A stretch of 64,000 nt of DNA from Woeseiaceae bacterium (GTDB lineage: Bacteria > Pseudomonadota > Gammaproteobacteria > Steroidobacterales > Woeseiaceae). Within the stretch, counting starts at the first letter, position 1. Every line of letters starts with the position of its first letter. A program made the translations under genes and the position numbers. This document shows positions 57,023-59,397 of the stretch, one piece after another. The notes beneath the pieces were generated by a model. It was not told the DNA's origin and made no database searches. It saw only the letters and a program-made list of their open reading frames with translations. Where the stretch lies: positions 62,001 to 126,000 of the forward strand of contig JAJFKP010000044.1 of NCBI GenBank assembly GCA_021773135.1, in the 5' to 3' direction.

Positions 57023-57910
57023 TCAGCCGGTTTTCTTTTTACTGTCTTCAATCTGTTTCGCCACCTCTGCAGCAAGATTCTCTTCTTTCTTCTCGATCCC
57101 CTCACCGACTTCGTAGCGCACGAAACCGGTAACTTCTGCGCCAGCACCCTGTAGCAGCTTGCCAACTGTCAAATCCGGATCTTTTACGAACGGCTGACCG
57201 ACAAGGGTGATTTCTTTCAAATACTTGGCGACCCGTCCGGTCACCATTTTTTCAACGATTTCCTGTGGCTTGCCGGATTCCGCCGCCTGTTCGGCAAAAA
57301 GACGTCGCTCTCGTTCAAGCGTTTCTGCCGGCACACCATCATCGGCGACACAAACCGGATTTGTTGCGGCAACGTGCATTGCGATGTCACGGGCCAGCTC
57401 GCCGTCGCCACCTTGCAGACATACCACGGCACCTATTCGAGCGCCGTGTGTGTACGACCCGAGGTGATCTGCAGCTGAAACGCGCACGAATCGACGCACC
57501 GAAATGTTCTCACCGACTTTCGTAATCAGTTCGGTCCGCGCATCTTCGACCGTGCGGCCATCGGCCAGCGATTCTTTAGCCAACGCCTCAACATCTGCAG
57601 CCTCGCTTGCGAGAACACAGGCAGCTACAGCTTCCGCAAAGGCGATGAAGTTTTCATCTTTGGCGACAAAATCCGTCTCAGAGTTAATTTCCAGCATGGC
57701 GGCCCGCAAACCGTCCGATGTAATTACAACCCGGCCATCAGCTGCGACTCGACCTGATTTCTTGTCCGCTTTGGCCTGACCTGATTTGCGGAGTAGTTCA
57801 ACCGCACTTTCCATGTTGCCGTCTGTTTCGACCAGCGCTTTTTTGCACTCCATCATGCCTGCGCCCGTGCGCTCGCGAAGTTCTTTAACCATTGATGCAC
57901 TAATAGCCAT
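57023..57910 (-). CDS. tsf: Elongation factor Ts
   Basis: EF-Ts regenerates EF-Tu-GTP. The 295-residue protein has the N-terminal UBA-like module (Val-Lys-Glu-Leu-Arg-Glu-Arg-Thr-Gly-Ala-Gly-Met-Met-Glu-Cys-Lys-Lys-Ala-Leu) and the core Asn-Ser-Glu-Thr-Asp-Phe-Val-Ala. The C-terminal module carries the segment Gly-Gln-Pro-Phe-Val-Lys-Asp. The ATG at 57910 has AGAGG upstream; a GTG directly before it is also in frame. It follows rpsB by 70 bases. Confidence 0.97.
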   Translation of the reverse strand: MAISASMVKELRERTGAGMMECKKALVETDGNMESAVELLRKSGQAKADKKSGRVAADGRVVITSDGLRAAMLEINSETDFVAKDENFIAFAEAVAACVLASEAADVEALAKESLADGRTVEDARTELITKVGENISVRRFVRVSAADHLGSYTHGARIGAVVCLQGGDGELARDIAMHVAATNPVCVADDGVPAETLERERRLFAEQAAESGKPQEIVEKMVTGRVAKYLKEITLVGQPFVKDPDLTVGKLLQGAGAEVTGFVRYEVGEGIEKKEENLAAEVAKQIEDSKKKTG

Positions 57911-57980
57911 CACTAACTACCTCTGAATATTATGTATTGGTGACCCGCCGCACTCCCCATCGGGGCTGCAGCGAAATGTT

Positions 57981-59090
57981 CTAGTCGGCCTCTTTTTTAG
58001 TCGCCGCCTTTTTTGTCACCTTTTTCGCTGTGGCCTTCTTGGTTGCCGTCTTCTTGGTCGCGGCCTTTTTTGCTGCTGGTTTCTTCGCTGGCGTTATTTC
58101 AGCGCCTTCCTCTGCCGCAGCATCGGCTACTTTCGGCTGCGCTGCAGGCGTTTCATCCTTGGCTTTTTCTTCAACCTTTTCAACAGGCTTAGCCTCAACT
58201 TCAGGCGCATCAGCTGCCTTTTCAGGCGCTTTCTCTGCCTTTGGCCCGGCAACTTTGGCATCCGCCGTTGCTTTCGTCACCGACGCCTTTTTCTTCACAG
58301 TGGCCTTACGCGCCGGCCTGCGACCCGATTTCTTCTTACTCGCGCGTTTCGGCTTGCCGTCTTCGTCGAGTTCGACGAACTCGTCTTCACCCAGGGCCAC
58401 TTCAGGCAACGATGCCTTGCCATCGAGAACCGCGTCTGCGACCAGGGTTGCGTACAGCGTGATCGCACGCATCGCGTCGTCATTGCCTGGAATGACATAG
58501 TCAACGTTATCCGGTGAACAGTTGGTGTCGACAATCGCGACGACGGGAATCCCCAGTTTGCGCGCTTCACGCACGGCGATATCTTCGTAGTCGACATCGA
58601 CCACAAACAGGACGTCCGGCAGGCCGGTCATTTCCTTGATGCCGCCAAGGCTTCGCTCCAGTTTGTCCTGCTCGCGGCGCCAGCCAAGCGCCTCTTTCTT
58701 GGTGACACGATCGAATCCGCCATCTTCTGCCATGGCCTCGAGATCCTTCAGGCGTTTGACTGACTGGCGCACCGTCTTGTAGTTGGTGAGCATGCCGCCC
58801 AGCCATCGATGAGTGACATGCGGCATTTCGCAGCGTTCTGCCTCGGCGCGAATAGACTCCCTCGCGGCACGCTTTGTGCCAACAAACAGGACCTTGCCGC
58901 CATCCGAGACTATGGTCTTGATAAACGCATACGCGTCGCGAGCCATGGGCAGGCTCTTTTCAAGATTAATGATGTGGATCTTGTTTCGCTCGCCGAAAAT
59001 GTAGGGTGCCATTTTCGGGTTCCAGTAGCGGGTCTGATGACCAAAGTGCACGCCAGCCTCAAGCATCTGGCGCATAGAAACGTCTGCCAT
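57981..59090 (-). CDS. rpsB: Ribosomal protein S2 with long Lys/Ala-rich C-terminal tail
   Basis: Residues 1-240 are a normal S2: start [15 protein letters not shown], then Arg-Trp-Leu-Gly-Gly-Met-Leu-Thr-Asn and [10 protein letters not shown]. S2 of E. coli ends near residue 241; here the frame continues to 369. The extra part has a basic stretch (about 246-275), an acidic Ala/Pro/Glu region (about 283-332), and a histone H1-like stretch (about 336-367) of Lys-Lys-Ala-Ala-Thr/Lys-Lys-Thr-Ala repeats. The stop directly precedes the normal spacing to tsf, so the tail is part of the gene. Its function is unknown. Confidence 0.95.
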
Positions 59091-59397
59091 GAAAGTATCT
59101 CCGGGTTAGGCCTCCGCACACCCCGCCGCACAACCCCTTTTTTGGTAGGGCACCCAGTGCGACGTGACGGTGCACGTGTGAAGTAATTGCCTCTAGGGCG
59201 CGCGCTTTATACCATAGCGGGCTGGCGCCAACAATCAGTTAATACGCAATATTTTCGGGCCTTGCAGGGATCCGGTCCGAGCATTCTACGGACGGTTAGA
59301 ATTTCCCCGCCGCAAAGCCTTTCGTAGCTGAAATACACGGTATTTGAGGTTCCAAAACGATCGCCCAGCGCTGCCTGGGCCCACAAACTGGGAAAAA
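59091..59397. other. Divergent rpsB / map intergenic region
   Basis: This 307-base gap separates the minus-strand rpsB from the plus-strand map. It holds a plausible rpsB promoter (listed separately) and a leader of about 115 bases before rpsB, long enough for the S2 autoregulatory leader known from E. coli. The leader includes CCCTACC-AAAAAA-GGGG, and GGAG stands eight bases before the ATG. On the map side I see no firm promoter; GGGA precedes the map ATG. No gene or repeat is visible. Confidence 0.7.
59206..59234 (-). promoter_or_regulatory. Candidate promoter of rpsB-tsf
   Basis: TTGTTG (59234-59229), a 17-base spacer and TATAAA (59211-59206) read on the minus strand. The -10 is followed directly by GCGCGCGCCC, a G/C-rich discriminator typical of promoters under stringent (ppGpp/DksA) control, as expected for ribosomal protein genes. 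Confidence 0.5.

Follow-up and report, generated by a model that had tools for sequence, protein, structure and literature searches.

Low-complexity tails on bacterial ribosomal proteins are a kind of feature that is already known. In the survey of Ntountoumi et al. (2019, PMC6821194), low-complexity regions occur in more than 100 orthologs for each of S2, S16 and L25, and lysine exceeds 30% in 34 of 45 such regions of L21; a lysine content of 30% or more was taken there to suggest nucleic acid binding, and functional study of these regions was called for. The tail of ribosomal protein S2 described here appears to belong to the same phenomenon, and is less of an oddity than an earlier, sequence-only reading of this DNA had supposed. 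The portion of that survey consulted here gives counts and composition, and contains no linker motif, module order, analysis of selection or pairing of S2 with L21 tails. In mosquitoes, RpS6 and RpL23a carry histone H1-like extensions (Hernandez and Fallon, cited in PMC11764897), which are likewise lysine-rich, low-complexity ribosomal tails and evolved independently. They differ in being eukaryotic and in sitting on other proteins, and neither an acidic middle nor a conserved linker is described for them in the part of that source consulted. The third relevant system is not ribosomal. According to the consulted part of PMC9239181, KPAA peptides of AlgP bind DNA, and AlgP, with its 25 perfect KPAA copies, spaces polyphosphate granules. 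The KPAA domains of AlgP and PhaF share with the S2 tail a predicted disorder, a richness in lysine and alanine and an H1-like composition, but they are dense tandem repeats, whereas the S2 tail has KK pairs and an acidic stretch. Our search of the literature, which covered few subscription journals, found no title or abstract on an S2 linker motif or on S2 and L21 tails together; in the literature found, bacterial ribosomal tails were counted but not dissected. The new detail here is a tail built of four modules: a linker, a basic block proximal to it, an acidic middle that drifts and a KK-rich end.

We analysed a window (the whole stretch of 64,000 nucleotides) from a Woeseiaceae bacterium, in which rpsB is a single unbroken frame of 369 codons with an ATG start (Table 1). 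The sequence-only reading had seen a tail of about 125 residues run on in frame from S2, with basic, acidic Ala/Pro/Glu and KK-Ala/Thr segments. We can confirm this: the stretch 57984-58358 corresponds to codons 245-369 of that one frame, i.e. 125 codons, and all the segments are present. The protein belongs to the uS2 family (the cut-off of TIGR01011 is 76.3 bits, and tsf adjoins), and PF00318, with a cut-off of 26.1 bits, matches over its entire model (1-216 of 216) at residues 9-224; by Pfam and NCBIfam the S2 domain falls within residues 4-226. It is the single match to the S2 family in a 4.55-Mb, 99.7% complete assembly. It is not a member of the S2 'sunset domain' variant NF051451, with 298.6 bits for a threshold of 710, and its score for the long S2 PRK12311 (NF008966), 320.5 bits in a match that ends at residue 226, is below the threshold of 526. 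The gene order rpsB-tsf-pyrH, where the last gene is presumably pyrH, is the same as in E. coli, and upstream of rpsB lies a t44 RNA, which we take to be the S2 autoregulatory leader. Between the end of rpsB and the start of tsf (57913) there are 67 nt. This agrees with the usual spacing claimed by the sequence-only reading, the median being about 56 nt for 238 loci, some of which repeat the same gene (the script's raw median of 62 nt was measured from the third tsf codon), against 257 nt in E. coli.

Table 1. Features of the rpsB region, in positions of the window.
Feature	Position	Strand	Evidence
rpsB, ribosomal protein uS2, 369 aa	57981..59090	minus	PF00318 330.4 bits; TIGR01011 351.5 bits
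S2 core, residues 1-226	58413..59090	minus	Last helix 207-226 in AlphaFold2 model
Linker with DEFVELDxxG motif, residues 227-245	58356..58412	minus	No variation at F238 and E240 across 47 aligned sequences
Proximal basic block, residues 246-270	58281..58355	minus	Charge pattern, pN/pS
Acidic/Ala/Pro middle, residues 271-332	58095..58280	minus	Drifts largely within its own composition
Terminal KK-rich (H1-like) block, residues 333-369	57984..58094	minus	Charge, pN/pS, shuffled controls
t44 RNA (RF00127), rpsB leader	59105..59198	minus	70.9 bits (gathering 44), model 1-95 of 95
tsf, EF-Ts, next operon gene	57023..57913	minus	PF00889 250 bits

We showed that this is a genuine long charged tail, shared by relatives and partly kept by selection, and predicted to be flexible. 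Together with the window gene, the same-genus relatives whose gene end is visible (7/7) have an in-frame tail of similar plan. These eight S2 (nine were fetched, our own included, one being cut by a contig end) stay in frame to the stop, with tails of 138-218 aa after the core; in L142 a contig edge has removed the first 50 codons. Beyond the genus, a whole-protein search of 99 relatives (own included) matched 87, among them 53 of the same family. S2 from 49 of these 53 genomes was used (G006 is a tail piece only; G025, G037 and G059 were left out), comprising 43 complete and unmasked proteins, four cut by contig ends, the masked L157, and L021, which runs into EF-Ts. The set for charge and length omitted the S2-EF-Ts read-through L021, the two loci with masked residues (L157 and L165) and nine S2 cut by contig ends (4 of 49 in the family, 2 of 34 in the order and 3 of 85 in the class). 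In the family, the 43 proteins (own included) have 303-458 aa, with a median of 360, and 77-232 aa after the core; L128, like L142, is without its first codons.

The sequence-only reading would have fallen had the tail come from a frameshift or been absent from close relatives. Neither was found, given the tails of all seven same-genus relatives. We regard a frameshift, misassembly or wrong stop as extremely improbable and reject it as an artefact explanation, because the relatives are in frame and synonymous-site differences occur throughout the tail. An array made by DNA slippage is rejected too for the window, since TRF reports a single weak 33-bp repeat and the codons of the tail are mixed, both for lysine (AAG 19, AAA 14) and for alanine (GCG 13, GCC 8, GCA 8, GCT 4).

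AlphaFold2, applied to S2 alone with an alignment of 47 sequences, gives the blocks of the core confidences of 74-96. Confidence is middling in the linker (57 for block 231-240 and 70 for block 241-250), and the ten-residue means are 47-60 from residue 251 on. After residue 226 the model lists neither helix nor strand, and has single-residue bridges at 241 and 247. The low confidence and the lack of regular structure fit an intrinsically disordered tail.

The consensus of the linker is G-[ED]-D-[ED]-F-[VI]-E-L-D, plus a G at +7 from the F. The D at -2, the F, the E, the L and the +7 G occur without exception in 43 family members, among which the first G has three exceptions and the last D two. 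In the 47 aligned S2, D236, V239, L241, D242 and G245 are conserved at 90% or more, next to the two invariant residues. A loose rule, which asks for [FYLM][VIM][EAP][LVIMAN] no more than 32 residues from the core, finds the motif in 43/43 S2 of the family, 31/31 of the order and 73/82 of the class, and these last 73 have F in 65 cases and E in 69. Most of 30 S2 from outside the class (L377-L379, L382-L408) are without the motif by eye, and one of them, L393, has DEFVAVE. The 241-aa S2 of E. coli has 15 residues beyond the core and ends in AEESFVEAE. In the best match from the PDB, 7unr, which we take to be from Pseudomonas aeruginosa, there is an aligned DEFVE nine residues before its own end. 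These two sequences relate the linker motif to the ordinary C-terminus of gammaproteobacterial S2, the tail being what comes after it.

The charge layout of the tail is clearest among the closest relatives. In the genus (8 tails), the mean charge per residue after the motif is +0.28 in the first quarter, -0.08 in the middle and +0.31 in the last quarter; in all eight, each end is more basic than the middle, and 0 of 1000 residue shuffles, which ignore descent, reach either contrast. Hence the charge pattern, which the sequence-only reading had proposed to follow in relatives, is conserved as basic-acidic-basic within the genus. The corresponding values in the family (43) are +0.28, -0.06 and +0.15, again with 0/1000 shuffles for both ends; the proximal quarter is more basic than the middle in 43/43 and the distal one in 30/43 (13/43 not). 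Elsewhere in the order, where 25 tails were of sufficient length, the values are +0.19, +0.01 and -0.14. The proximal part is more basic than the middle there in 20/25 (0/1000 shuffles), but the distal part in only 5/25, and on average it is less basic than the middle, with 1000/1000 shuffles as high or higher. In the class (28 tails; +0.08, +0.05, +0.02) neither end stands out, as 158 and 783 of 1000 shuffles indicate. The basic end is thus not general outside the family, and we reject a charge triblock as an order-wide rule.

A strict rule finds the terminal block in 25/43 of the family and in 6/31 others of the order. On a tree built quickly from 71 S2 cores, of whose 68 inner branches 29 are weakly supported, and which includes L021 (cut before EF-Ts), L157 and L165, the strict terminal block (29/71) requires at least 12 changes. 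The KK-rich end is kept in the genus and labile in the order. In the window protein its KK pairs lie about five residues apart, and its last 34 residues include 14 lysines (41%, hand count). The likeness to AlgP and histone H1 put forward by the sequence-only reading stands for the composition of this end, which is H1-like, and fails as homology: the protein scores 7.4 bits against HC2 (PF07382; E = 6, cut-off 40), and instead of the tandem KPAA repeats of AlgP and PhaF the terminal block has one KPAA, by eye. We thus reject homology to AlgP or HC2 and retain a likeness in composition only.

Alignments of low-complexity sequence flatter themselves, and pN/pS was therefore rerun with codon-shuffled, realigned controls in four same-genus pairs, with 200 shuffles each. 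The ratios are rough since synonymous sites of the tail are at or near saturation. They are 0.02-0.08 in the linker (0.17 for the pair with L142), 0.07-0.16 in the proximal block, 0.10-0.14 in the S2 core, 0.15-0.26 in the terminal block and 0.38-0.57 in the acidic middle. Shuffles with a ratio as low as the observed one number 0, 0, 1 and 0 of 200 for the linker over the four pairs, 0 of 200 in each pair for the proximal block, 0, 27, 0 and 3 for the terminal block and 140, 8, 22 and 31 for the middle. By these counts, the linker and the proximal block are held beyond their composition, the terminal block is so in three of four pairs, and the middle is not clearly so.

How common are long S2 tails? 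The claim that S2 normally ends near residue 240 holds for E. coli and for a second draw, over the phylum, in which 15/19 same-class S2 have 241-249 aa (two of the four others being genes already in the first sample). It does not hold for the first class sample of 85 S2, which leans to better-scoring, hence nearer, genomes: the 82 with their end in view have 247-455 aa, with a median of 286, and 41 of them have at least 60 aa after the core. Given a median of 286 in one sample and 15/19 short S2 in the other, long tails are common in parts of Gammaproteobacteria and not general. The idea of a tail peculiar to this lineage is rejected by the class sample and by the published low-complexity S2, and the opposite idea, that long tails are the rule in Gammaproteobacteria, is not borne out by the second draw.

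Other things are found at the end of S2. Two same-class proteins, L203 and L216 (family code f92), have a helix-hairpin-helix (HhH) domain after the FVE motif (an HHH_5 match with E 7.6e-8 in L203; L216 is alike by eye), and five from outside the class (L402, L404, L405, L406, L408) have, by eye, a HhH-like domain on the S2 tail. We reject a link of the HhH domain to a ribosomal protein of solved structure, because a PDB search found no substantial ribosomal match (uS13, E 0.12). These proteins likewise have a module hung on the S2 C-terminus, but a folded one, whereas that of the window S2 is charged and predicted to be disordered. The 455-aa S2 of L231 (f53) has, after its basic part, a long region of no named domain, which matches nothing in Pfam at E values up to 1. 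In L021 (G055, same family) the S2 frame continues into EF-Ts as one frame of 773 aa, and in its relatives L020 and L118 the stop comes directly after the tail; L021 is either a real fusion of S2 with EF-Ts or the result of a sequencing error. As judged by eye, the S2 C-terminus receives modules repeatedly.

S2 and bL21 are the only ones with such tails among 36 ribosomal proteins examined in the genome. The bL21 (L171, C53) has 164 aa and a KK-rich tail of Ala, Pro and Lys; against HC2 it scores 22.9 bits (E 1.1e-4), still below the cut-off of 40. The other 34, from three loci of the genome and presumably rightly named by operon order, have no KK tail in their last 30 residues and have lengths near those of E. 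coli, L29 being somewhat long at 81 aa. For these 34 we reject the notion that lysine tails are a general feature of ribosomal proteins in this genome. The genome encodes a full-length S1. We collected bL21 from 52 of the 53 matched family genomes (in G026 it is a fragment of 26 positions) and from 35/35 outside: a basic tail of at least 25 aa is present in 51/52 in the family, where it is KK-rich, and in 7/35 outside. The lone family bL21 without a tail is that of G018, which is also without the S2 terminal block and is separate from the family in the S2 tree. In G022, a weak match to the S2 tail adjoined the bL21 gene and proved to be the tail of bL21. Across 71 genomes, with L021, L157 and L165 counted here too, the two tails are associated when descent is ignored (table [[23,19],[2,27]], Fisher p 3e-5), with p 0.06 outside the family alone; on the tree there are two (starred branches) to five (all branches) independent pairs, with a sign test p of 1. 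Since the tree leaves too few independent pairs and the raw p ignores descent, we do not claim co-evolution of the S2 and L21 tails. The genome also encodes a stand-alone protein (L169, C43) made almost wholly of Lys/Arg/Ala/Thr repeats, with an H1-like composition, and an apparent TopA with a KK-rich C-terminal tail (L172, C56), which we take to be DNA topoisomerase I.

Starting from the observed frame, conservation and modular selection pattern of the tail, and from its predicted disorder, we tentatively favour, at somewhat less than even confidence, a flexible charged arm that would weakly hold RNA near the mRNA exit of the 30S. According to the reviews consulted, uS2 sits at the hinge between head and body on the back of the 30S, is required for the binding of S1 and touches the SD duplex after initiation. 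An intrinsically disordered polyelectrolyte beginning at the conserved linker would put the proximal basic block by the body of the ribosome, followed by the acidic spacer and the KK-rich end. The basic blocks are assigned to RNA because uS2 sits near S1 and the 5' side of the mRNA: a disordered arm in this place would first meet 5' leaders and neighbouring ribosomes, which is why weak holding of RNA is favoured. Binding would be weak and without sequence preference, its partner the 5' leader of the translated mRNA or the rRNA of neighbouring ribosomes, and the acidic middle may keep the arm extended and away from its own rRNA. The tail would then be present in the mature protein and affect translation. 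The main points against an RNA-holding arm are the lability of the terminal block, which is odd for an important arm, and the lack of the distal pattern outside the family. The lability of the terminal block, with other points, would suit tolerated padding, in which the solvent-facing end of S2 gains Lys/Ala/Glu-rich extensions of little function beyond the linker; we find this rather unlikely, while ranking it next. Within one family the sequence after the core varies from 77 to 232 aa, the terminal block has changed many times on the quick tree, the middle drifts much like its shuffled control, some relatives have acidic tandem repeats (L035/L121, L021), and the long tail is absent from most same-class S2 of the second draw. 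Yet padding does not account for a proximal block conserved beyond composition in four pairs of four and a terminal block in three, nor for the restriction of such tails to S2 and bL21 among the 36 ribosomal proteins examined.

One might also speculate that the KK-rich ends of uS2 and bL21 hold ribosomes to the nucleoid or to polyphosphate in the manner of AlgP and PhaF, perhaps in starvation. The basic bL21 tails of nearly the whole family, the repeat protein L169, the presence of ppk1 in the genome and the published properties of AlgP all speak for such a tether, which we nevertheless consider doubtful: the HC2 score of S2 is far below the cut-off, in 15/40 family genomes the L21 tail occurs while the S2 terminal block is missing, and ppk1 is also matched in 7/14 control genomes. 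Nothing in the analysis favours polyphosphate or the nucleoid over RNA. A shade less likely still is that the linker motif serves to dock a protein partner, such as S1, RNA polymerase or another ribosome-bound factor, with the rest as a spacer. Its invariant and near-invariant positions, its spread through family, order and most of the class down to the end of E. coli S2, and a pN/pS that is the lowest of all parts in most pairs speak for a docking site. But the partner is hypothetical, the confidence of the model (of S2 alone) is middling there, and selection on the basic blocks would be left unexplained. As to autoregulation of rpsB-tsf, on which the sequence-only reading had suggested an effect, the t44 leader is intact and the tail could add affinity for it. 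We rank this as very unlikely because E. coli S2, an autogenous repressor according to the review consulted, does this with 15 residues beyond the core; a long tail is thus not needed.

At the far end of speculation, and improbable in our estimate, H1-like arms on both subunits (uS2 and bL21) might in this family let polysomes form a condensate by bridging to each other or to polyphosphate, mRNA or the DNA of the nucleoid, and DEFVELDxxG might be an undescribed gammaproteobacterial docking motif that bears KK-rich arms, acidic tails or HhH domains. The modular pattern of selection shows which parts of the tail merit testing and, as the FVE motif is so widely kept, the end of S2 deserves attention in E. 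coli itself, a species with easy genetics.
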